DNA from: Gammaproteobacteria bacterium Gsub
GTDB lineage: Bacteria; Pseudomonadota; Gammaproteobacteria; PS1; Pseudothioglobaceae
Assembly: GCA_002007405.1 (NCBI GenBank)
Contig: JYIN01000002.1
Location: 62,001-126,000, forward strand
Direction: 5' to 3'
Length of the DNA: 64,000 nucleotides
The notes under the pieces were generated by a model. That model was not told the DNA's origin. It saw nothing but the letters and a program-made list of their open reading frames with translations, and did no database searches. Of this stretch, positions 35,245 through 47,323 are shown piece by piece (positions within the stretch are counted from its first letter, which is position 1; each line of letters starts with the position of its first letter). The position numbers were made by a program, and so were the translations under genes.

Positions 35245-35290
35245 AAAATAAACTTTATAATAAAATACGAGAATTATAATACCTTTGAAG

Positions 35291-35959
35291 ATGGGCAAAA
35301 AACTAATTAGTTGTGATTTGGGCGAATGTTTAACCCCCAACCCAGATGCTACCGTAATGCCGTTGATTGATATAGCAAATATCGCTTGTGGTGGTCATGC
35401 TGGCAATGATAAAAGCATGATAGAAACCATCAACTTGGCTATGGAAAATAAGACTGCAATTGGCGCCCATCCGAGCTATGCAGATAAGGCAAATTTTGGA
35501 CGCCTAAGCCACCAGCTAACAAGTGGCAAACTGTTTGATTTAGTTTATTCACAAATAACACGCCTGAAAAAACTCTGCACTGAAAACGGTGCAAATCTTA
35601 AATATGTTAAACCACATGGAGCGTTGTATCATGATATGATTTACCAGTCAGAGGTTTTGCACATAATTTATAAAGTTATTGCCACAATTGACAAAAATTT
35701 ATCACTAGTAGTGCCTGCGGGTAATGAGGCGTATTTTCAGCACGAGAATATCAAATTTTTACATGAAGTATTTGCCGACCGAGCCTATAATGGCATCAAT
35801 ATTATCCCTAGAAATGAAAAAGGCGCTCTGTTAGATAATATTGATTTGATTGTCAAACAATACCACGGTTTTACTCACCCGAATCCTTTTAAAATTGATA
35901 CAATTTGTTTTCACAGTGATAATCCTGCCTCGGTTCAGGCTTTACAAAAAATAAAATGA
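35291..35959 (+). CDS. pxpA: 5-oxoprolinase subunit A (LamB/YcsF family)
   Basis: PxpA, PxpB and PxpC together open 5-oxoproline (pyroglutamate) to glutamate with ATP. The 222-residue protein shows SCDLGECLTPNPDA, IANIACGGHAGND and KYVKPHGALYHDM, the conserved metal/substrate elements. I chose the ATG at 35291; a TTG two codons upstream is also in frame. The stop overlaps the start of pxpB in ATGA. It is divergent from the dUTPase gene. Confidence 0.93.
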   Translation: MGKKLISCDLGECLTPNPDATVMPLIDIANIACGGHAGNDKSMIETINLAMENKTAIGAHPSYADKANFGRLSHQLTSGKLFDLVYSQITRLKKLCTENGANLKYVKPHGALYHDMIYQSEVLHIIYKVIATIDKNLSLVVPAGNEAYFQHENIKFLHEVFADRAYNGINIIPRNEKGALLDNIDLIVKQYHGFTHPNPFKIDTICFHSDNPASVQALQKIK

Positions 35960-36639
35960 AAATTATTCTGGCTGGAGAAGATTCAATTTTGATTTATTTT
36001 GGTAACAAAATAGACCCTAGCTTACCCAACATTATTGCCAATTTTGCCAATCAATTACAAAACCAATTACCCGAATATATTCTAAATTTAACCCCTGCTT
36101 ATACTTCACTATTGGTAAATTACAATCTAAATTTAATCAACTATGGGCAATTTTGCGAAAAAGTACAACACTGTTTTGATACACTTGTTAATAATCATAT
36201 TGACAATAATGATTCAACAATAATTGAGATTCCCGTATATTATGACTTTGAGGTTGGCTTTGATTTGAAAAAATTACTCAGCGAAAAAAATCTAAATTTA
36301 GCCACTTTTGTCAGCATTCATTCGGCAACACAATATTTAATTTATGCCATTGGTTTTAGCCCAGTATTTGCTTTTTTAGGCACAGTTGATAAGCGCATTC
36401 AAATGCCACGGCTACCCACACCTAGAATAAAAATCCCTGCTGGCAGTGTTGGCATTGCTGATTCTCAAACTGCTATCTACCCTACTGATTCATCGGGTGG
36501 GTGGAATATTGTTGGACGCACACCGATTGATTTATCTTTAAATAATTTAGACAATATCAATAAATTCAAAACAGGGGATTGGGTTAAATTTTATGCAATC
36601 ACCCGTAATGAATTTATTGACAAAGGCGGAACAATATAA
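35956..36639 (+). CDS. pxpB: 5-oxoprolinase subunit B (KipI-like carboxyltransferase domain)
   Basis: The 227-residue protein shows the family sequence IPVYYDFEVGFDL, IYAIGFSPVFAFLGTVD, PRLPTPRIKIPAGSVGIA and SGGWNIVGRTP. It pairs with PxpC and PxpA. It overlaps pxpA by 4 bp. The usual next gene, pxpC, lies 1.7 kb away (38316) because a lipoprotein gene and two intergenic stretches intervene, all on the same strand. Confidence 0.93.
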   Translation: MKIILAGEDSILIYFGNKIDPSLPNIIANFANQLQNQLPEYILNLTPAYTSLLVNYNLNLINYGQFCEKVQHCFDTLVNNHIDNNDSTIIEIPVYYDFEVGFDLKKLLSEKNLNLATFVSIHSATQYLIYAIGFSPVFAFLGTVDKRIQMPRLPTPRIKIPAGSVGIADSQTAIYPTDSSGGWNIVGRTPIDLSLNNLDNINKFKTGDWVKFYAITRNEFIDKGGTI

Positions 36640-36731: not shown

Positions 36732-38018
36732 ATGAACACAATTAAAAAAGAACTTTTTGCTTCGTTGTTATTTGTTTTGTTTTTGTTAAGCGGTTGTAGC
36801 GCTACTTCCCCAAGTAAAGACACCGCAGCCGTAGAGGTTGAAAAGCCTGGAAGTGTGGAAGAATTTAATAAATTACGCAAACAAAAAATTAGTGAAGTCT
36901 TAGCAGAATCACAGGAAAAGATTAAGTTTAACAAACTTGCAAGACAAGTTAGAATTGATGACATTTATGCTAACAAACAGGAAGAATTGAATGATTTAGA
37001 TGAAAAAAAACAAGCTGAAAAAGAAAAACTAAATCAAGCAATAGAAAATGAATTGTCATTAGAGCAAGATTTATTAAATGAAAGAGTCCAAAGTTTGCTT
37101 AAAGAAACCAAAAACAATGCCAAAGGTGAAAACTTAAGGGTGATTGCTGAAGTGGAGAGAGAAGTCTCCAGTTTTGAAAGTCAAGTAGAAAGCGAACTAA
37201 CAAAAGAAATATTAAAAACTGAAGTTGAAAAAATCTCTGACTACATGCGACAAGAAAGGCGCTTAGAGAGAGATCATAAATTTAAACTTGCTGTTGAAAA
37301 AACTAAAATTGATTCTAAAAACAAGAAAAGGTTAGAAATTTTAGCAGAAGAGCTTAAATCCAAAAGACAATACAACGAAAATTTGGTAAAACTCAAAGCT
37401 GATTTTTTAGAAAAACAACGCGCTGAAACTGAGGCAGCTGTCAGAAGAAAAGCACAAGCTGAAAACAAGGCGATTACCGATAAATTAGCAAATAAATATA
37501 TCGCAGAAGTGAATAAGTTTGAAAAAGATGTTATGACAGCTTTGGCAGAAGAAGAAAAACGAATAATAAGCAATTTAAATGCCAAATTCTTTGAAGCTAA
37601 AAAAGAAAGAAGCGCCAAAGAAAGAAAACGCCTAAGCGAGAGTACAACTAAAGGTAAAGATGCTAAATTAGAAGCTGGTTCAAAAAAACGCACTGATTTA
37701 ATTCCTATTAGAGATGCAAAAATTGTAATCATAGAAAATGAACTTGAAGATGCAATCAGGCAAATTAGAATGGATGAAAAGCAAGAACTTGCAAGTCTTA
37801 AAATAAAAATGGATGAAAAACATGCCGATGGATTAGGCGATATTGAAATATCCTATTCGGAGAAAAGTGAGCAAGTTGAAAATAAAGCAAAAGTTTTAGA
37901 AAAAAATGCCATCTCTCGCTATGAATTAAAAGCTGAAGAGATAGAATCTGATCAGGAAAGAAAAATCAATGCAATCAATAAAGAAATTGATACGATGATT
38001 AACAAAATTAAAAGTTAA
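36732..38018 (+). CDS. Coiled-coil lipoprotein, unknown function
   Basis: The 428-residue protein starts with a type II signal peptide and a lipobox (LLSGC, Cys at about 22). The remainder is almost continuous charged coiled coil dominated by Lys and Glu, with Glu-Lys heptads from about residue 45 to the end and no globular domain I can recognise. It should be anchored in the outer or inner membrane facing the periplasm. The ATG has a strong GGAGA upstream. It sits between pxpB and pxpC, which belong together, suggesting an insertion. Long coiled-coil lipoproteins may act as spacers or in contact with the wall, but that is a guess. Confidence 0.75.
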   Translation: MNTIKKELFASLLFVLFLLSGCSATSPSKDTAAVEVEKPGSVEEFNKLRKQKISEVLAESQEKIKFNKLARQVRIDDIYANKQEELNDLDEKKQAEKEKLNQAIENELSLEQDLLNERVQSLLKETKNNAKGENLRVIAEVEREVSSFESQVESELTKEILKTEVEKISDYMRQERRLERDHKFKLAVEKTKIDSKNKKRLEILAEELKSKRQYNENLVKLKADFLEKQRAETEAAVRRKAQAENKAITDKLANKYIAEVNKFEKDVMTALAEEEKRIISNLNAKFFEAKKERSAKERKRLSESTTKGKDAKLEAGSKKRTDLIPIRDAKIVIIENELEDAIRQIRMDEKQELASLKIKMDEKHADGLGDIEISYSEKSEQVENKAKVLEKNAISRYELKAEEIESDQERKINAINKEIDTMINKIKS

Positions 38019-38315: not shown

Positions 38316-39233
38316 ATGGGCTTTAAGGTTGTTAAATCTGGTTTTCTATCCATAATTCAAGATTATGGTCGCCTAGGCTATGGTGGACAAGGTTTGGTCC
38401 AATCAGGGGTAATGGACGAACATGCTTACGCATGGAGCAATCGCCTGCTTGATAATCATTTTAACGATGCCACAATTGAAATTACTTTTGGTAGTTTTGC
38501 ATTAAAGGCAAAAACAAACACTTTTATTGCAGTTACTGGCGCCGATTTGGATTTTAAAATTAACAACAACCCCGCCTTAATGTGGCGCCATATACAAGTA
38601 AAAAATGGCGATATTCTAACTTGGGATAAACCTAAAAAATATGGTGTGCGTGCTTATTTGGCAGTTAAAGGTGGATTTGATACACAAGTGTTTTTCTCCT
38701 CTAGATCGGTTAATTTACGCGAACACATTGGAGATAAACTCAATAAAGACGACACTCTACCTTGTGCCAGTTTTAATGCCAAGATCCACTGCCCCCCTAC
38801 TCCGGAAAAATACATACCAAACTATAATCAGCCTCTGATTTTAAGATTATTGCCCAGTTACCAATTCAATCAATTTAGTGCTAGCCAACATAATTTATTG
38901 TTTAACCAAAATTACACCATAAGCCATGCCAATGATAGAGTCGGCTGTCGGCTAGATGGTGCGCCAATGAACATTAAAAAATCTACTATGATATCTGAAG
39001 GCATAAGTTACGGTAGCGTAGAAATTGCCACTGACGGGTTGCCAATTATCCTCCTCAAAGACGCCCCTACGATTGGTGGTTATGCAAAAATTGGCACTGT
39101 ATTCTCGCTTGATTTAGCAAAATTAGCACAACGACAGGCAGGCACTAAACTTAGATTTGAAATTATAACCATTCATCAAGCACAAAAAAAACGCCAACAA
39201 TTTAATAACTTTTTTACCATTACCCCACATTAA
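38316..39233 (+). CDS. pxpC: 5-oxoprolinase subunit C (biotin-dependent carboxyltransferase-like, KipA family)
   Basis: The 305-residue protein completes the PxpABC complex. It has the family opening GFLSIIQDYGRLGYGGQGL and GVMDEHAYAWSNRLLDN, then the middle AVTGADLDFKINN and the C-terminal LPIILLKDAPTIGGYAKIGT. It is on the same strand as pxpA and pxpB but separated from pxpB by the coiled-coil lipoprotein gene. No overlapping translational coupling is possible, unlike pxpA-pxpB. The start ATG lacks a strong Shine-Dalgarno. Confidence 0.93.
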   Translation: MGFKVVKSGFLSIIQDYGRLGYGGQGLVQSGVMDEHAYAWSNRLLDNHFNDATIEITFGSFALKAKTNTFIAVTGADLDFKINNNPALMWRHIQVKNGDILTWDKPKKYGVRAYLAVKGGFDTQVFFSSRSVNLREHIGDKLNKDDTLPCASFNAKIHCPPTPEKYIPNYNQPLILRLLPSYQFNQFSASQHNLLFNQNYTISHANDRVGCRLDGAPMNIKKSTMISEGISYGSVEIATDGLPIILLKDAPTIGGYAKIGTVFSLDLAKLAQRQAGTKLRFEIITIHQAQKKRQQFNNFFTITPH

Positions 39234-39681: not shown

Positions 39682-42306
39682 TTAGTTGAATACGCTTACA
39701 TCAATAATTTGCATATTTCCTTGTCCGCGCGAATCACTTAGTATGTTTGTTAAAGGTAGTACACCGCTGGCTACAAATAGGGTGTTACCGTCTGGAGATA
39801 GGGTTACGCCTATTGCGCCTATTAAACGATGATCAGTATCTTTTCTGGTGCTGTAAATCCCAGCTAGGGTAGGATTTTTAGGGTTATTAACATTGATTAC
39901 CCGAACCCCGCTTGTGCGGTCTGCTACAAAAACAACATTGCCTTCTTTTGAGAGCACGACATCTGTGGAATCTGTGGTGGAAATACTAGAAATAATGGCA
40001 GGCGTACTGGGGGTGCTGATATCAATAATATGTAGGCTTGGAATTGATGTTCCCACATTGGTTGTAACAACTGCATTGGTTGTAACATAAGCAGTGTTAC
40101 CATCGGGAGACAATGCAATACTGGTGGCAGAGCCTGAGAGATCTACTGGACCACCCAACAACACAGGGTTCGCAGGGTTGCTAACATCAACAATCTCAAA
40201 ACCATATCGTCCATTGGCTATATAAGCGGTAATACTGCTATCATTAGTTAAGATAACGGCGTCTATTACTTCTGCCGTTGCTGGGACATAGGTGCCGAGC
40301 ACTTCAGGGTCGGGGTTTGCAATATTGAGAATCTCTAAACCTGCTGCAGAACCCGACAGATAGATAGTGTCTGGATTATCTGATATAGAAACATTTTCTA
40401 AATTATTATTATTATTATTATTACCATTACTGTAGTTCCCAGTATAGCGCTTGATATCTGGTGTTGGATCAGTAACAACATCAATAATTTCTAAACCACT
40501 TTGATAGCCTGCTATAAAGGCACGACGACCATCGGCTGATAGAGTTACGCTTGCTGCTGCTGATAGAGGTCCTCCGGTTATCGTCATCGCCACCGCATCA
40601 GATTTGTATGCAGCGGGGTGTGTGCGCTCTACAGGGTTTGTAAGGTCTTCAATGTTAACAAAGTATAAACTAAACTCACCATTATTATCAAATTCTGTTA
40701 TGAAGGCAGTATTACCGTCGTTTGATATAGCAATATCTCCAAGAGTTGTTGCTGTTGCGGTGGGGAAAAATTCACCTTGTGCAAACGAATCACGAAAGGT
40801 TTCAATTCCAAAGAGTGCGGTGCCGCCATTATTTAAGTTGGTCAATATTGCATTTTTATTATCTTGATATTTTTGTGTAAATTTGTCATCGTTAGCAAGT
40901 ATTGGATCAAATGTGATGATATCTAAAATATTAATAACACCATCTGTATTGGTATTTTCAGCAATCACCTGACCAGTTGTGGTCCCAATTAAAGTGTCAA
41001 TATCTGCGGGCATTAAGTTAGGGTTGGTCAATTCTTTTGCCATGAGATCATAGGCGATTTCACTGGCAAAACTAACGCTAAAAATAGCCTCATTACCGAG
41101 TGTTTGAACTGTGCTGCCCTTAACAAAGGCACGCGTAGTCACTGTATTGGTAAGAAGATTACCCTCGTTATCATCATAGCCAATAATACTATTGACCTGA
41201 TATAGATAAAAACTATCCCTCTCTAAACGGCCTTGTTCTTGATGAGTCAAGAAGCTAACAACACCAGTGCTCACATCAACCGTAGGTGAGGTGGAAAATG
41301 ATTGTAGCTCGTAACTAGCATCTGTATTTCTTTTAAAAATTTTCACACTTGCAGGTTCATCTTGCAAACTATCGCCTCGTTGTCCAGATCTGAATTTGGC
41401 GGAACCCTGAATTGTTGCAGGAAGAGGATTGATAGTGATATTAACGGTTGCAGTGCTGGTGCCTGTAACATTGCGTGCGGCGATGGTATATTCAGTTTCA
41501 GTTTGGGTAACACTTGGAGTGCCTGAAATAACACAATTACCCCCTGATAAGGCAACGCTCAACCCCGTGGGCAGTGCGGTGCCAATGCTGCTACACATCG
41601 TAATCGCACCGCCGGTGTTTGTAAAGGTAATATCAATGATTGCCGTATCTACAACGACTGTTTGATCGGTGCCATTAGCAATTATTGGGGCAGAAGGATT
41701 GATAGTGATATTAACGGTTGCAGTGCTGGTGCCTGTAACATTAGTGGCAGTGATGGTGTAGGTAGCAGTCGTAGCAACAGCAAGTGGGGTGCCTGAGATG
41801 GCACCAGTTGCAGTGTTAAATGCTAAACCGTTTGTAATCGCTGGAGTGATTGAATAACTATCAACCGCACCGCCAGTAGAGTTGATTGTAATCGGGTCTA
41901 TGGCAATGCCTACAGTTGCAATAAGGCTGCTAGGATTTGCACTGATGGTAGGGGTAGAAGGATTTATAGTGATAGCAACGCCTACAGCATCTATATCTGT
42001 AGCACTCATCGCCGTTATGACATACTCAGTTCTTGTAGCCACAGTGGTAGGGGTACCTTCAATGGTGCCTGTGGTAGTGCTAAATGATAAACCAGCACTA
42101 ATAACTGGTGTGATTGAGTAACTATCAACCTCACCACCAGATAATACGGTGATTGTTATTGGTTCAATCATAGTGTTTTGGGTTGCTATTAGCTCTGTAA
42201 CACTTGGTGTGATGCTAAGTTTTTCACTTGAAGAATTGCCACTGTTACAAGCAATGAGTGTTAATGCAATAAGTGTTACTGAAAATAATTTGATGAGTTT
42301 GATCAT
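39682..42306 (-). CDS. Lipoprotein with Ig-like repeats and LVIVD-type beta-propeller
   Basis: The 874-residue protein has a lipobox (LIAC, Cys at about 20) after a signal peptide. Three Ig-like (He_PIG-type) domains follow to about residue 300 (each with a GLxFxxxTGxIxGTP element). After about residue 530 come repeats of the form xVLSxDGNTAYVxxxxxGxxIIDVSNPxxP, the LVIVD/beta-propeller pattern. The signature occurs five or six times. The middle has an asparagine run (N7) from an ATT microsatellite at 40402-40422. It is a surface or periplasmic protein, likely adhesive or substrate-binding; function unknown. The ATG has AAGGAGAA upstream. Confidence 0.85.
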   Translation of the reverse strand: MIKLIKLFSVTLIALTLIACNSGNSSSEKLSITPSVTELIATQNTMIEPITITVLSGGEVDSYSITPVISAGLSFSTTTGTIEGTPTTVATRTEYVITAMSATDIDAVGVAITINPSTPTISANPSSLIATVGIAIDPITINSTGGAVDSYSITPAITNGLAFNTATGAISGTPLAVATTATYTITATNVTGTSTATVNITINPSAPIIANGTDQTVVVDTAIIDITFTNTGGAITMCSSIGTALPTGLSVALSGGNCVISGTPSVTQTETEYTIAARNVTGTSTATVNITINPLPATIQGSAKFRSGQRGDSLQDEPASVKIFKRNTDASYELQSFSTSPTVDVSTGVVSFLTHQEQGRLERDSFYLYQVNSIIGYDDNEGNLLTNTVTTRAFVKGSTVQTLGNEAIFSVSFASEIAYDLMAKELTNPNLMPADIDTLIGTTTGQVIAENTNTDGVINILDIITFDPILANDDKFTQKYQDNKNAILTNLNNGGTALFGIETFRDSFAQGEFFPTATATTLGDIAISNDGNTAFITEFDNNGEFSLYFVNIEDLTNPVERTHPAAYKSDAVAMTITGGPLSAAASVTLSADGRRAFIAGYQSGLEIIDVVTDPTPDIKRYTGNYSNGNNNNNNNLENVSISDNPDTIYLSGSAAGLEILNIANPDPEVLGTYVPATAEVIDAVILTNDSSITAYIANGRYGFEIVDVSNPANPVLLGGPVDLSGSATSIALSPDGNTAYVTTNAVVTTNVGTSIPSLHIIDISTPSTPAIISSISTTDSTDVVLSKEGNVVFVADRTSGVRVINVNNPKNPTLAGIYSTRKDTDHRLIGAIGVTLSPDGNTLFVASGVLPLTNILSDSRGQGNMQIIDVSVFN
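40402..40422. repeat. (ATT)7 microsatellite within the lipoprotein gene
   Basis: Seven ATT units (AAT on the coding strand) encode a run of seven asparagines just before the LENVS segment. Length changes would keep the frame, so it could vary the size of a propeller loop without switching the gene off. Confidence 0.8.
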
Positions 42307-42488: not shown

Positions 42489-43493
42489 ATGTTTAATAAA
42501 ATTTCAATGAATAATTTACTATCTAAATGGACATTTCTTATTGCCAGTATGACCACTTTTGCTTGTTTTGCGTTGCTGGCAATTGGGCATTTGTATTCAA
42601 CTAATATTATTGTTTTCGGCTTTATTTTTGCATTGCCGATTTTGATTGGGTTTTTTGGGAAAAAATACCACAGAGTGGCACTTATGATTAATTTATTAGC
42701 ATTGGCAGCTCTTGTTTTATTGGCATCTATCACAGTATGGCAAAGTGTGCTTTTAGGGCAAACGCTTGATTTATCACTTAATTTATTATTGTTATTATTA
42801 ATTTTAGTGCTAGGCTTGATTTGGCAGCTATTGGCTATTAACATCAGTCAAAATAATGATAATAGGTTAAATGCTCTGGTTTATCGGGCACGAAAAATCC
42901 CCTCAGCACTCATTATGCTGGTAATTGCCCTGGCTTTGAGTGATTTACTTTTGTTACTGCTTTCAATACTACCAGATGGTTTTGCTTATTTTGTAAATAA
43001 AATTATTGGTAGAGGCATTATTCCACCGCTTACAGTAACTTTATTTTTTTGGGGGTTGCTACTGATTGTGAGTAAATATATTATTTTACTGAGTGAAAAA
43101 ATTGAGCATTCAGCAAGTAGAGTTTATTTTGACGCAATTCAAGCTAAAATTGGTAATAGTGAAAAAGATAAAAAATTGGTATTGGATTTATTATGGAACC
43201 AGTTTGAGTCTTTTTACACTCTACCACACTATATTAATTGGGCAATTCCGATTTTAGGATTTATTGGCACGGTATTGGGGATTTCATTGGCAACCGAACA
43301 ATTAGGCTTAGCACTTGGAGATAACAGCACACAAACAGGGCAATTATTATCCTCAGCATTAACCCCGCTGGGGATTGCTTTTGATACTACTTTAGTCGCC
43401 CTATCACTTTCTATTGTGCTAGCTTTATTGCAAACTTTGTTATATCGTTCAGAGGCAAAATATTTAGATAAATTAGAAGAAAAATTTAAATAA
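42489..43493 (+). CDS. MotA/TolQ/ExbB-type proton-channel family protein
   Basis: The 334-residue protein is mainly hydrophobic (about 7-8 segments). Residues 245-325 carry the MotA/ExbB channel signature: WAIPILGFIGTVLGISLA followed by ALTPLGIAFDTTLVALSLSIVLALL, the pair of channel helices of TolQ, ExbB, MotA and ZorA. The N-terminal 200 residues with about six segments are longer than in ExbB and are not recognised. The gene leads an operon of four: the next starts 10 bp downstream and the following two overlap. Family knowledge suggests an ion-driven rotary stator; the identity of the driven partner is inference. Confidence 0.82.
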   Translation: MFNKISMNNLLSKWTFLIASMTTFACFALLAIGHLYSTNIIVFGFIFALPILIGFFGKKYHRVALMINLLALAALVLLASITVWQSVLLGQTLDLSLNLLLLLLILVLGLIWQLLAINISQNNDNRLNALVYRARKIPSALIMLVIALALSDLLLLLLSILPDGFAYFVNKIIGRGIIPPLTVTLFFWGLLLIVSKYIILLSEKIEHSASRVYFDAIQAKIGNSEKDKKLVLDLLWNQFESFYTLPHYINWAIPILGFIGTVLGISLATEQLGLALGDNSTQTGQLLSSALTPLGIAFDTTLVALSLSIVLALLQTLLYRSEAKYLDKLEEKFK

Positions 43494-43503
43494 AACCCTC
43501 ATT

Positions 43504-44028
43504 GTGCCAAAAAAAAGCAAAAAGCTCAGTGCTGAACAAAATAGTTATTTTGATGCCCCAACTGTAGAAATATTCGGTTCAGCACTGGCGTTGTTAATTA
43601 TCGTTTTTATTTTAAGTAACATTGTTATTACCCAAGATATTAAAGCCATGCTTGAACGCTCAACTGAAGGAGCAAAGTTTAATGTTTCATGGGAGAATGG
43701 TGCAGAGGGTTTTGTGGTCATTACCCACACGGATAAATTGCGTATTATTGAGACCAACCAAAGCGTTGCTACTGGTGATATTTGTAAGCCAGACAGTGCA
43801 TTTATTCAATATGTTGAAAAAATTTATAATAACAGCAACAAACAGCAGCTTATTTTTGCCATTACCAAGGGCAGTGTTGCTACTATGGCAGTTGCTAGAG
43901 AATGCCTAAGAGTCCATTATCCTAATCGCACCGTTACAATAGGCTGGATTATTGCCAATCAAGATTTATTATCCACAGTACAGCTAAAAAATTTACCTGA
44001 GCGGATTAAAAAAACCATTAAAAAATGA
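43504..44028 (+). CDS. Single-pass membrane protein, possible ExbD/MotB-type partner 1
   Basis: The 174-residue protein begins with GTG at 43504, 10 bp after the channel gene. A cytosolic stub (KKSKKLSAEQN) leads into YFDAPTVEIFGSALALLIIVFILSN (residues 16-40) with aspartate D17 just before the membrane segment. A periplasmic domain of about 130 residues follows with no OmpA-type peptidoglycan site visible. The single segment after an acidic residue, plus adjacency to a MotA/ExbB protein, suggests the stator partner, though the aspartate is not as centrally placed as in ExbD or MotB. Its stop overlaps the next gene in ATGA. Confidence 0.65.
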   Translation: MPKKSKKLSAEQNSYFDAPTVEIFGSALALLIIVFILSNIVITQDIKAMLERSTEGAKFNVSWENGAEGFVVITHTDKLRIIETNQSVATGDICKPDSAFIQYVEKIYNNSNKQQLIFAITKGSVATMAVARECLRVHYPNRTVTIGWIIANQDLLSTVQLKNLPERIKKTIKK

Positions 44029-45764
44029 GGAATCAAAGCAAAAAACTGTTTAAAAAAAGCAGTGTTGTATTGGCGGATATTTTGGCGAATAGTATTGCGG
44101 TTATTTTAATCCTTATTATTATCAGCTTAGATTTTGAACAGAAAAAAGCCCAACAAGAGCGTGAAGAAAACGCTGATATTACCACTATTTTGGCGCGACA
44201 AATTGCCAATAATATAGTATTTAACGACTTGCCCTCTACCCCCCCTGCTTATTTGCATGATTATAAAAGTTGCAAAATTGCACATGATTGTCAGCCAATG
44301 CTATATCCCATTATTGAGATTTATGATGGCTATGTGCGGATTGTCAAAAACAATCATAAAATTTATCGCAGTGAATTATTAAAGCCTAACAATATTTTAG
44401 ACAGATATTTAAAAACCCTGAGTCCTCAACAATCTCAAAATATTCGCATTGATATTCACGGAGTGGGTGAATATTATTTGGCACTCTCAATTCTAAAAGA
44501 TAATAATATTAAACCAAGACATTGGCATTATCTGGGGGAAAAGGTGGCAGGCATTAGGGGGGCAGTTTTGGGTGATGACCGCGTTATTGGGGAAAAAACA
44601 AAGGAAGACAGTGATGCAAATAGTGATGATAATCAAGATATTAGCACTTTAGATAAAATAGGAGATCGGCCCTTAAGTAGTAACTTAGATGCCTCAAACA
44701 ATATTGCAGAATTGAGTTTTAATCCAATAGAATACGACAGTTTATTGCCGATTGAAGAAGATGGCAATCGTCTATTACCCGCAGAATCAGAAAAGCCCAC
44801 ACAAGATACTGAAAATGCTACATCAAACCAGCCTTCAAGCCAGCCCAATGCACCACCGGGGCTGAGTCATTCACAAGTGATGGCGTTATTTGAGACTTAC
44901 AAAAAAGCACAACAACCATCTCAATCGCCTAATATAGGCACTGGTGAGGGTAGGCGTAGTTACCAATCAAAAATCCATATTCCTAATTTTGAATCAAACC
45001 CCTATCATGATAATGGAGGAGGGCAAAGTTTAGAAATCAAAAAATACCGACCGCTGATTTTGACGCATTTATTTAATATTTTGCAATTAGCAAATCAGAA
45101 TCAAGGTTTTGATTTTTCTCTAAAAGACAAAAATAAATTAGATAAAATCTTTGCAGATACGCCATTAGATCAGCATCCGCAAGCGGAAATTATCCACCAA
45201 TTAGCAGCCGATTTAGACGAGATAACCCACCCCGAGACTGCAGAAAATCGCCTATTAGGACCAATGATTAACGCTAATTTAAATGCTAATTTACTGCAAT
45301 TAGAAACAAACACCATTTTGCCACCCGTATCATTACATTTAGCCTTCAAAACTCCCCATCTATTACAACTTAAAAATAATAAAATGCTAAATATTGAATT
45401 ATTGATGCGACTTTATCCAACTTTATTTAAAGGTGAATTTTTAAAAGATACTGGTCTTAGTGTATTAATCCATCCTGAACAACTTAAGCCAACAAACCCT
45501 AACCCAAGATGGATAGCGATTGCTATTTTTGATACCCTGTTAGAGAATATTGGGTTGGGATTCATCTATGCCAGTATTATAGATAATAAACTCCTTATCA
45601 ATACTGAAGTCAATCAAATAAAAATCAATGATTTACCCGTTTACCAAATTCAAATCAAGCAAGGTAGTCTCCAAAATTACCGTTATTCTTTAATAATGTG
45701 GCTATTTGGGTTAGTATTTATTATTGCCTTGCTGGCGAAACCATGGCGGCATAGAAAATGGTAA
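44025..45764 (+). CDS. Two-segment membrane protein with disordered middle, possible MotB/GldM-like partner 2
   Basis: The 579-residue protein starts in the stop of the preceding gene (ATGA). The first membrane segment (residues 14-36, VLADILANSIAVILILIII) has an aspartate, D18, in the ADILAN position, reminiscent of the ADFM of MotB. A long exported part follows: a folded domain to about 190, a low-complexity Ser/Pro/Asn/Gln region (about 190-310), and another domain to about 550. A second segment (YSLIMWLFGLVFIIALLAKP) lies at the C-terminus. No known domain was recognised. The start codon of the FGE-like gene lies 7 bp inside its end. Confidence 0.65.
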   Translation: MRNQSKKLFKKSSVVLADILANSIAVILILIIISLDFEQKKAQQEREENADITTILARQIANNIVFNDLPSTPPAYLHDYKSCKIAHDCQPMLYPIIEIYDGYVRIVKNNHKIYRSELLKPNNILDRYLKTLSPQQSQNIRIDIHGVGEYYLALSILKDNNIKPRHWHYLGEKVAGIRGAVLGDDRVIGEKTKEDSDANSDDNQDISTLDKIGDRPLSSNLDASNNIAELSFNPIEYDSLLPIEEDGNRLLPAESEKPTQDTENATSNQPSSQPNAPPGLSHSQVMALFETYKKAQQPSQSPNIGTGEGRRSYQSKIHIPNFESNPYHDNGGGQSLEIKKYRPLILTHLFNILQLANQNQGFDFSLKDKNKLDKIFADTPLDQHPQAEIIHQLAADLDEITHPETAENRLLGPMINANLNANLLQLETNTILPPVSLHLAFKTPHLLQLKNNKMLNIELLMRLYPTLFKGEFLKDTGLSVLIHPEQLKPTNPNPRWIAIAIFDTLLENIGLGFIYASIIDNKLLINTEVNQIKINDLPVYQIQIKQGSLQNYRYSLIMWLFGLVFIIALLAKPWRHRKW

Positions 45765-47323
45765 AAACCCTATTGTCATTATTATTGTCATTGCTGATTA
45801 TCCTCATGTTGAGTCTGATAATTTGGCGCTGGTTTTACCTACCTGATAACGATATAGTGTTGGTGAATATTGTTTTTGATGATAAAACCCCAGTATCAGC
45901 ATTGGACAAAATTTTAAAAAAACATACCTTTGAGTTGAGTAAAAAACCCAGTTTAATTGCACAATTTAGATACCCAAACAGCACAACGAATCTAACCTCA
46001 TTATGGATCAATCGCTGTGAAGTCAGCCAAGCAGAATTTGGGCGTTTTATCAGTTGGCAGGCATTAACGAATAAAAAATTCAATACCGACCCTGAGCAAA
46101 AATCCGATTGGACTTATCAAAGCCAGACTAGCAAACACAAAATATTAGGGCAATTAAATTCCCCCGTTAGTGGGGTTAGTTTTTTTGATGCGTTTGCTTA
46201 TTGCCAAGCATCGGGTGGCAGGCTGCCCAGTGCTGATGAATTTGAAGCAATTAGCACTGGGCGAGGGCAACGACTCTATCCTTGGGGGAATAAAATTACC
46301 AATGAGGGGTGGCATTATTATGACCCAGTGCTTAATGTTAGTAGGAAATGTGGCGACTATAAAACTGCCATTAGCCTAGAAAATATCGCTGATTTAGGCA
46401 CTAATGTTTCAGAATGGACAACAACAAAAGACGGGGCAATCATAATGGGCGGTAATGCTTATCAACGCCCAGCAGAATTATATGCACTTGCCAGTATCCG
46501 CCGCCAAGCACCAAAAGATTTTCGCTCTCAATTCGTAGGTTTTCGCTGTGTTTATCCTGCTCATAATACTAATAAAAAACCACTAAAAAGCCATAAATTG
46601 CCTTGGAAAGGAAAAACAGATTTAGTATTTATACCTGATGGTACTTACCAAATTGGGGTTAACAAACACGCCAAAATACCGCAATTACTCAGATCATTAA
46701 AAGACGAGGATATTGCTATTATTAAAGATATTAACAAACGCTATAAAAAAAGCAACGCAAAAATTATGCGTTTTGAGACCAATGTTGCCCAGTACCAACG
46801 GTTTTTATCCGACCCTTTAGTTAAATTGGGTTTTTACAATCATAAAAAACAGCCTGATAATCTCAACCACAAACCTGATAATTGGCAACAACAACAACAA
46901 CAACCAACCCGCCCTATTGTTAATATCAGCTGGTGGAGTGCTTGGGCATTTGCAAAATGGGCGGGTGGGCGGCTGCCTAGTGTTGATGAATGGCGTTTTA
47001 TTGCCAGTGCCGATTTAACCCAATTTCCATATGGCAATCATTATCAAAAAGGTCGTGCGGTTGACCGTCATTATCAAAATCCAATACTAACCAATCCACT
47101 CAGTGTTAATAGCTCACAAGACGGCGGTAAAAATAAAGTATTGGGCTTATCTGGTAATGTTGCTGAATGGACAAATAGCACGGTATTAAAAGACAATACT
47201 TTTTTAGTTTTGGTTAACGGTGGGAGTTATTTAATGCCTGAATCTGGCTCACAAGTCAATCAAAGTAGCGAAGCACCCCCAAATTATAAAAGCGGAGATT
47301 TAGGTTTTCGGGTTATTTTTTAA
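45758..47323 (+). CDS. Membrane-anchored protein with two FGE-sulfatase-like domains lacking the catalytic cysteines
   Basis: The 521-residue protein has an N-terminal anchor (residues 3-24) and two formylglycine-generating-enzyme-like (SUMF1) domains. Domain 1 is at about 80-266 with GGRLPSADEFEAI, YPWGNK, NVSEWT and VGFRCVY. Domain 2 is at about 288-521 with GGRLPSVDEWRFIA, GNVAEWT, NGGSYL and LGFRVIF. Neither has the active-site cysteines of true FGE in the region after the GGS/GGN motif, so a structural role, as in GldK/PorK of type IX secretion, is more likely than sulfatase activation. It is the last gene of the motor-like operon and overlaps the third by 7 bp. Confidence 0.8.
   Translation: MVKTLLSLLLSLLIILMLSLIIWRWFYLPDNDIVLVNIVFDDKTPVSALDKILKKHTFELSKKPSLIAQFRYPNSTTNLTSLWINRCEVSQAEFGRFISWQALTNKKFNTDPEQKSDWTYQSQTSKHKILGQLNSPVSGVSFFDAFAYCQASGGRLPSADEFEAISTGRGQRLYPWGNKITNEGWHYYDPVLNVSRKCGDYKTAISLENIADLGTNVSEWTTTKDGAIIMGGNAYQRPAELYALASIRRQAPKDFRSQFVGFRCVYPAHNTNKKPLKSHKLPWKGKTDLVFIPDGTYQIGVNKHAKIPQLLRSLKDEDIAIIKDINKRYKKSNAKIMRFETNVAQYQRFLSDPLVKLGFYNHKKQPDNLNHKPDNWQQQQQQPTRPIVNISWWSAWAFAKWAGGRLPSVDEWRFIASADLTQFPYGNHYQKGRAVDRHYQNPILTNPLSVNSSQDGGKNKVLGLSGNVAEWTNSTVLKDNTFLVLVNGGSYLMPESGSQVNQSSEAPPNYKSGDLGFRVIF

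Follow-up and report, generated by a model that had tools for sequence, protein, structure and literature searches.

A conserved four-gene envelope system that combines a MotA/TolQ/ExbB-type channel protein and two dissimilar membrane partners with a double formylglycine-generating enzyme-like protein without catalytic cysteines

The stretch analyzed here, hereafter the window, comprises 64,000 nucleotides (nt) of contig JYIN01000002.1 (positions 62,001 to 126,000) from Gammaproteobacteria bacterium Gsub, whose genome contains 1.37 Mb in 14 contigs. Four co-directional open reading frames, designated P1, P2, P3, and P4, occupy window positions 42489 to 47323 on the plus strand and constitute a genuine envelope system, conserved but without annotation, referred to below as the quartet. 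P1 (42489 to 43493; 334 amino acids [aa]) is followed after a 10-nt spacer by P2 (43504 to 44028; 174 aa, with a GTG start codon), and P3 (44025 to 45764; 579 aa) and P4 (45758 to 47323; 521 aa) begin within the preceding genes, with overlaps of 4 and 7 nt, in agreement with the four overlapping or nearly touching genes described in an earlier note on this DNA. For P2 and P3, no meaningful match was obtained in Pfam, NCBIfam, or PADLOC, and the counts of promoters and terminators predicted from the sequence were not above those in shuffled controls. A whole-genome profile search found, elsewhere in the source genome, one further PF01618 gene about 100 bp from one PF02472 (ExbD) gene; by its profile matches, this separate pair is assigned as a canonical TolQR/ExbBD.

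The four genes were found together much more often than chance would allow. A scan with the P1 alignment over 84,980 species genomes gave at least 44 loci (L040 to L083) at E≤4e-22, the next match falling to 2e-15. Among the 44 loci listed, P2 adjoined P1 in 43, P3 was present in 41, and P4 was present in 39, and the order was invariably P1-P2-P3-P4; the complete order thus recurs in 39 of 44 loci with no common flanks, and the lack of conservation that the earlier note had named as a refutation of its reading was not observed. Three of the incomplete loci are contig ends (L066, L080, and L083), a fourth (L042) had no P4 visible within the 0.66 kb remaining past P3, and in the fifth (L061) P1 is solitary and P2 and P3 lie together at another place in the same genome. 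The quartet order was held in dozens of genomes down to 20 to 30% identity. A class-wide P1 search added long matches in 5 further genomes of 369 (E values from 2e-54 to 3e-26), four of which had the same order (P4 being present or cut at a contig end in G349 and G251), and the contig of the fifth stops after P1. P2 and P3 were absent from all other genomes searched around the window, including 35 of the same family, and the distribution of the quartet is therefore patchy. A phylum-wide search of 399 genomes with the P2 profile recovered its own genome and one marginal short match, and a first scan of the genome collection with P4 as the only query gave no matches.

Clustering of all flanking genes revealed nothing else in common, except for a divergent Ser/Thr kinase gene in 10 loci of one clade, and the four genes therefore constitute the unit. 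The kinase gene lies on the opposite strand about 1.2 to 3.1 kb upstream of P1 (L049, L050, L051, L053, L054, L068, L071, L075, L081, and L082) and is restricted to the clade with Ala at position 22 of P2; it may represent synteny or a regulator. In a tree of 29 concatenated quartets, some branches of which are long, the quartets of L048 (STY1_bin_8, labeled Deltaproteobacteria) and L079 (labeled Nitrospirales) nested within the gammaproteobacterial tree, and their placement may reflect transfer or misbinned contigs. A mobile or viral origin was rejected, as the P1 profile had no relative among viral contigs and the P2 query had no match among plasmids. Genes for N6/N4 DNA methylases were observed near the quartet in L035 (13923 to 17046), L043, L044, and L048; in L035, HNH-type genes were also present, and a DNA methylase gene is directly upstream of P1.

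P1 was assigned as a MotA/TolQ/ExbB-type channel subunit on the basis of a PF01618 match above the cut-off, its transmembrane (TM) helix count with positive-inside loops, and a 35-member alignment. The MotA_ExbB domain, residues 241 to 329 (43209 to 43475, plus strand, as for all features below), scored 23.5 bits, just over the curated threshold of 22.9 bits, and 25.0 bits in the whole-genome search. Three blocks, RG.IPP, LGFIGTV.GISL, and PLGIAFDTTL, were invariant in the alignment, the latter two (LGFIGTVLGI and PLGIAFDTTL in P1) lying in the Pfam domain. In a single comparison of the P1 profile with TolQ/ExbB (E=6e-5), the invariant Thr261 (43269 to 43271) was the counterpart of the first ExbB/TolQ pore threonine (GTVxGI), and the threonines of the invariant Asp299-Thr300-Thr301 (43383 to 43391) fell on the second. 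Asp299 is an extra invariant acid close to the periplasmic end of the eighth TM helix, and the FDTT motif was retained in four distant-relative sequences. Eight TM helices were predicted, with both termini in the cytoplasm according to the alternating positive charge of the loops and with a cytoplasmic loop at residues 202 to 250; the P1 relatives had 8 predicted helices in 31 of the 44 loci listed and 6 or 7 in the remainder. The identification of P1 as a channel protein in the earlier note therefore stands, but its channel helices at residues 245 to 325 are just part of a protein with about eight.

The only matches of P1 in the defense library were to ZorA models and were weak (best E=0.0016), and they bear on the idea, improbable in our view, that the quartet is an antiphage motor in the manner of Zorya, in which P4 or P3 would serve as the envelope sensor for phage, with the channel depolarizing the cell or signaling to nearby enzymes. 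Long cytoplasmic tails in four distant P1 relatives and DNA methylase neighbors at a few loci (3 among 101 flanking proteins, or 4 loci when the genes were clustered) also speak for such a role. However, as the earlier note had stated, no ZorC/ZorD-like effector accompanies the genes, and none was present in the flanks among the first 25 families listed; Pfam and PADLOC scans showed the flanks to be mostly ordinary chromosomal genes without a consistent pattern, and the kinase matches to defense models stemmed from four ordinary Ser/Thr kinases. The searches of viral contigs and plasmids likewise argue against defense, and a Zorya system or defense island was rejected as an assignment.

P2 and P3 are the unequal members of a gene pair. 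P2 is a single-TM periplasmic protein, the first of the pair, and was modeled with a predicted local distance difference test (pLDDT) score of 79. Its model aligned with the ExbD periplasmic domains 8vgd, 8vgc, and 8p9r with template modeling scores of 0.68 to 0.70 by target length (Foldseek E values of about 0.4 to 0.7). The alignment of relatives showed no conserved acid in the P2 TM helix. At the position of the sole candidate, Glu22 (43567 to 43569), the 29 relatives on the tree split by one change into a group of 16 with Glu and a group of 13 with Ala. P3, in contrast, has an invariant TM aspartate, Asp18 (44076 to 44078), in the motif L-x-D-I-L-A-N (32 of 32 sequences in one alignment and 31 of 31 in another), with a D-x-x-x-N counterpart in distant relatives, and is a candidate proton-carrying residue. 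The earlier note had placed an aspartate where each of the two proteins enters the membrane; that of P3 is real, but Asp17 of P2 is not conserved.

According to its alignments and model (pLDDT 67), P3 consists of an N-terminal TM helix, a domain of ExbD-like topology, a low-confidence linker, a second periplasmic domain, and a C-terminal TM helix. The first periplasmic domain (residues 95 to 180; 44307 to 44564) and P2 share a common succession of strands and helices in the two models, and the sequence match between P2 and P3 was weak. A Foldseek search of the PDB with P3 gave only noise and no match to ExbD, and no known fold was recognized for the second domain (residues 338 to 540; 45036 to 45644). 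The C-terminal TM helix (45684 to 45740), which the earlier note had missed, was predicted with a positively charged tail in 39 of 39 relatives. A protein with a TM helix, a linker, and a distal domain could suggest a force transducer like TonB or TolA, with the P1/P2 motor pulling P3 to act on the outer membrane, and related clusters of the Planctomycetes-Verrucomicrobia-Chlamydiae (PVC) group include such transducers (PMC12204202). The second P3 TM helix and its tail, however, tie the distal domain to the inner membrane, and the pore-type aspartate sits in P3's own first TM helix; we consider this role hardly likely.

P4 is a membrane-anchored protein with two FGE-fold domains (FGE, formylglycine-generating enzyme), as recognized by PF03781 (E=4e-45) and by profile matches to the PDB. 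Its N-terminal TM anchor, a hydrophobic segment at residues 4 to 22 (45767 to 45823), was present in 39 of 39 relatives, and a lipobox-like motif was present in 3 of 39. Domain 1 (45974 to 46552) and domain 2 (residues about 376 to 520; 46883 to 47317) were delimited by Pfam or profile matches together with the alignment. In a survey of 32 relatives, no cysteine occurred in the 16 residues counted from the GG motif in either domain (0 of 32), and none was intact elsewhere; the earlier note's description of two FGE-like domains without catalytic cysteines is thus confirmed, and an active FGE was rejected. Many PF03781 members lack the catalytic cysteines, and the loss in P4 is for that reason unremarkable by itself. 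Within domain 1, Cys149 and Cys264 were invariant and Cys87 and Cys198 were found in 29 of 32 relatives; these four conserved cysteines likely form disulfides.

The best PDB matches of the P4 profile were SUMF2, FGE, and EgtB-type enzymes, and PorK chains were weaker (E of about 4e-9). PorK is a dead FGE fold that serves as the docking hub of a proton motive force (PMF)-driven motor (PMC12421860), and in this respect the GldKLM likeness put forward in the earlier note is an apt analogy; as kinship it fails. The quartet does combine such a fold with a channel and single-TM partners, as would a GldKLMN or type IX secretion system-like secretion or gliding machine that had moved into proteobacteria. 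P4, however, scored 17.8 bits against the GldK model (E=0.0016; cut-off of 350), far below its matches to EgtB, FGE, and SUMF2. GldL/PorL needs 2 TM helices and P1 has 8 predicted, and GldM/PorM has a single TM helix and several periplasmic Ig-like domains, whereas P2 is a one-domain protein of 174 aa and P3 has two TM helices. No GldN/PorN was found in the operon, which ends at P4, or as a conserved flanking gene. On this topology, the absent lipobox, the missing GldN/PorN, and the profile scores, membership in GldKLM was rejected, and a transferred machine of this type is very improbable.

The carriers, about forty bacteria in addition to Gsub as a lower bound, are mostly marine or sponge-dwelling. 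Three of the 44 loci listed (L055, L058, and L069) belong to sponge symbionts or sponge dwellers according to record titles or taxonomy, and 12 bear the isolate prefixes STY, COS, IRC, and RHO, which fit the sponges Stylissa, Coscinoderma, Ircinia, and Rhopaloeides of PMC8163846, a link that we infer. At least 15 of the 44 loci listed thus appear to originate from sponge symbionts, 12 of them through the prefixes. None of 36 weaker P1 relatives, described below, had an explicit sponge label or such a prefix, in what is an uncontrolled comparison with the quartet loci. Approximately 13 further loci (SB06xx, PNGst/PNGco, LS06H, and HK1) are presumably sponge-derived as well. The sponge-symbiont loci are compatible with a ligand-gated channel or sensor without mechanical output, in which P4 would bind a ligand through its FGE-fold domains, a host glycan, for instance, or a peptide, and thereby gate P1. 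The frequent use of the FGE fold, a scaffold of C-type-lectin-like type, in binding also counts for this explanation. We nevertheless give it little credence, as the arrangement of the aspartate and pore threonines is typical of force-generating motors and no conserved cytoplasmic signaling partner was found.

The 36 weaker P1 relatives (L084 to L119), which came from planctomycetes, verrucomicrobia, cyanobacteria, and some others, mostly have 4 TM helices, and the P1 profile matched these distant channels with E values of 1e-19 to 1e-31. In most of them, the channel gene is followed by two single-TM genes, and heterologous tolR-like gene pairs with tolQ-like genes have been described in the PVC group (PMC12204202), in a paper that names neither FGE nor sulfatase. 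The first member of the distant pair has the motif S-L-F-P-F-[LIQ], with the acid usually missing and Asp in a minority (FQD or FLD), and the second has an invariant Asp that is accompanied in almost all cases by Asn (D-x-x-x-N). Single hhalign comparisons matched P2 to the distant first member (E=2e-4 across 135 columns), the P3 N terminus to the distant second member (E=4e-5, with the TM motif as the matching part), the distant first member to the second (E=1e-14), and the distant first member to ExbD (E=6e-5). The P3 N terminus also gave a sizeable cross match to the distant first member, located in the periplasmic domain (E=4e-4), which descent of both members of the pair from a single ancestor would predict. 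Each of these values is modest by itself, but they agree with gene order and fold. Closer in kinship to the P1-P2-P3 core than GldKLM are these unnamed systems of planctomycetes and cyanobacteria, in which an ExbB goes with an ExbD-like pair. Both have the order channel, usually acid-less first partner, and D-x-x-x-N second partner; the pair systems differ in their mostly four-TM channels, examples of which have long cytoplasmic tails, and in the lack of a double-FGE gene downstream. No C-terminal TM helix was seen in 26 distant second-of-pair proteins, the sequences of which were trimmed to 400 aa.

Two side observations concern the neighbors of these distant channels. Proteins that look by eye like the GYF_2 type (xxWYxRxxxGEVxGPFSRxEL) adjoin the ExbB-plus-pair genes in L085, L095, L097, L103, L116, L119, and other planctomycete loci. 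In the planctomycete loci L110 and L112, genes with FGE domains lie directly upstream of the P1 relative and match the P4 profile (4e-10 and 5e-17, respectively); planctomycete genomes are rich in FGE genes, and for this reason these neighbors may be there by chance.

On balance, and with considerable doubt, the quartet probably encodes a dedicated inner-membrane motor of the MotAB/ExbBD class, driven by the PMF or another ion-motive force. It would have an unequal ExbD-like pair, in which P3 is anchored at both ends, and P4 would be its noncatalytic docking or binding module. P1 would form a pentameric channel, with an axle in its pore made up of P3, whose Asp18 would be the one obligate proton-binding residue, and the ExbD-like P2, in which an acid is optional. 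Ion flow would turn the ring against this heterodimeric axle and move the periplasmic domains of both partners. P3, held in the membrane at both ends, could not span the periplasm as TolA or TonB does, and its periplasmic output would therefore stay near the inner membrane or the peptidoglycan. The second domain of P3 and the TM-anchored P4, if coupled to the motor, would make up the output or sensing module, and P4 would be its hub for docking or for ligand binding, after the precedent of PorK. The operon is conserved, the channel residues and the P3 aspartate are invariant although P2 lacks a conserved acid, the catalytic cysteines are missing, and the topology is as predicted above. A partner with an aspartate in its N-terminal TM helix is a feature of 5:2 rotary motors and is found here in P3. 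With the conserved quartet and the PF01618 match, the earlier note's proposal that ions drive an envelope machine here, one with a distant relationship to MotAB/ExbBD and joined to a dead FGE-fold protein, is supported.

Several findings weigh against such a motor. The four extra N-terminal TM helices of P1 and the C-terminal TM helix of P3 are without counterpart in solved motors, and no product of the operon spans to the outer membrane or has known peptidoglycan binding. Neither P2 nor P3 matched PF02472 (ExbD/TolR) in Pfam, PDB searches with their profiles gave no relative, and their direct profile matches to ExbD were not significant (hhalign E=0.004 for P2 and 0.075 for P3); direct ExbD homology by profile was accordingly rejected. 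The Foldseek E values of P2 against ExbD were also not significant, and the link through the distant pairs has modest hhalign probabilities of 47 to 70%. More tentatively still, the quartet could belong to a motor class with an obligate-heterodimer axle that has a single proton-carrying aspartate (one half-site, not two), specialized here by a double-anchored shaft and a dead double-FGE docking head as a machine with which sponge symbionts would interact with hosts or surfaces.

Other genes in the window lie upstream of the quartet. Directly upstream, a divergent gene (39682 to 42306, minus strand) encodes an 874-aa protein with He_PIG Ig-like and LVIVD repeats (Pfam) and, judged by eye, a lipoprotein-like N terminus. 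Genes for PxpABC of the 5-oxoprolinase type (LamB_YcsF, CT_C_D, and CT_A_B; 35285 to 36639 and 38316 to 39233) are split by an unrelated gene at 36732 to 38018, which encodes a 428-aa coiled-coil, lipoprotein-like protein with no Pfam match.

The best reading places the quartet motor core within the known MotAB/ExbBD kind, with the asymmetry of the pair and the dead double-FGE partner as the variant part. A search combining ExbB, MotA, and formylglycine-generating enzyme found no paper in the literature collection covered. Like ExbBD/TolQR, the quartet has a PF01618 channel with both pore threonines, an N-terminal TM helix with an invariant Asp (in P3), and a partner whose model resembles ExbD (P2), but its channel has about eight TM helices, and its two ExbD-type partners are dissimilar, as a conserved acid is missing in one of them. 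P3 moreover carries a second domain and ends in another TM helix, P4 is added, and TonB/TolA is missing. The likeness to Zorya ZorAB is limited to the weak profile similarity between P1 and ZorA; the quartet lacks the ZorC/ZorD effectors, and P1 lacks a long tail. P4 domain 1 is best matched by the SUMF2 and FGE structures, but unlike SUMF1/SUMF2, P4 has no catalytic cysteines, is membrane anchored, has two domains, and is encoded inside a motor operon. GldKLMN/PorKLMN also couples a PMF-type motor to an FGE-fold protein without catalytic cysteines, although P4 is no lipoprotein, has two FGE domains, and lacks the GldK signature, GldN is missing, and the channel and shaft topologies differ; the quartet would add another case, apparently of independent origin, in which a dead FGE fold goes together with a proton-driven motor. 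It is also an unannotated envelope machine that recurs in sponge symbionts, and its cultured carriers, the two vibrios Aliivibrio finisterrensis and Vibrio thalassae, allow deletion. To our knowledge, the axle in all solved motors of the MotAB/ExbBD class is a dimer of identical subunits with two acids. The Myxococcus gliding motor AglRQS resembles the quartet in having a single MotA-type protein and two MotB/ExbD-type proteins that differ from each other, but AglQ and AglS both carry the Asp, whereas only P3 has it throughout in the quartet, and heterodimer formation in such two-partner motors has been stated as an open question (PMC9389320). With one partner that always has the Asp and another that does not necessarily have an acid, the quartet makes both this question and the number of proton sites per rotary cycle directly testable.

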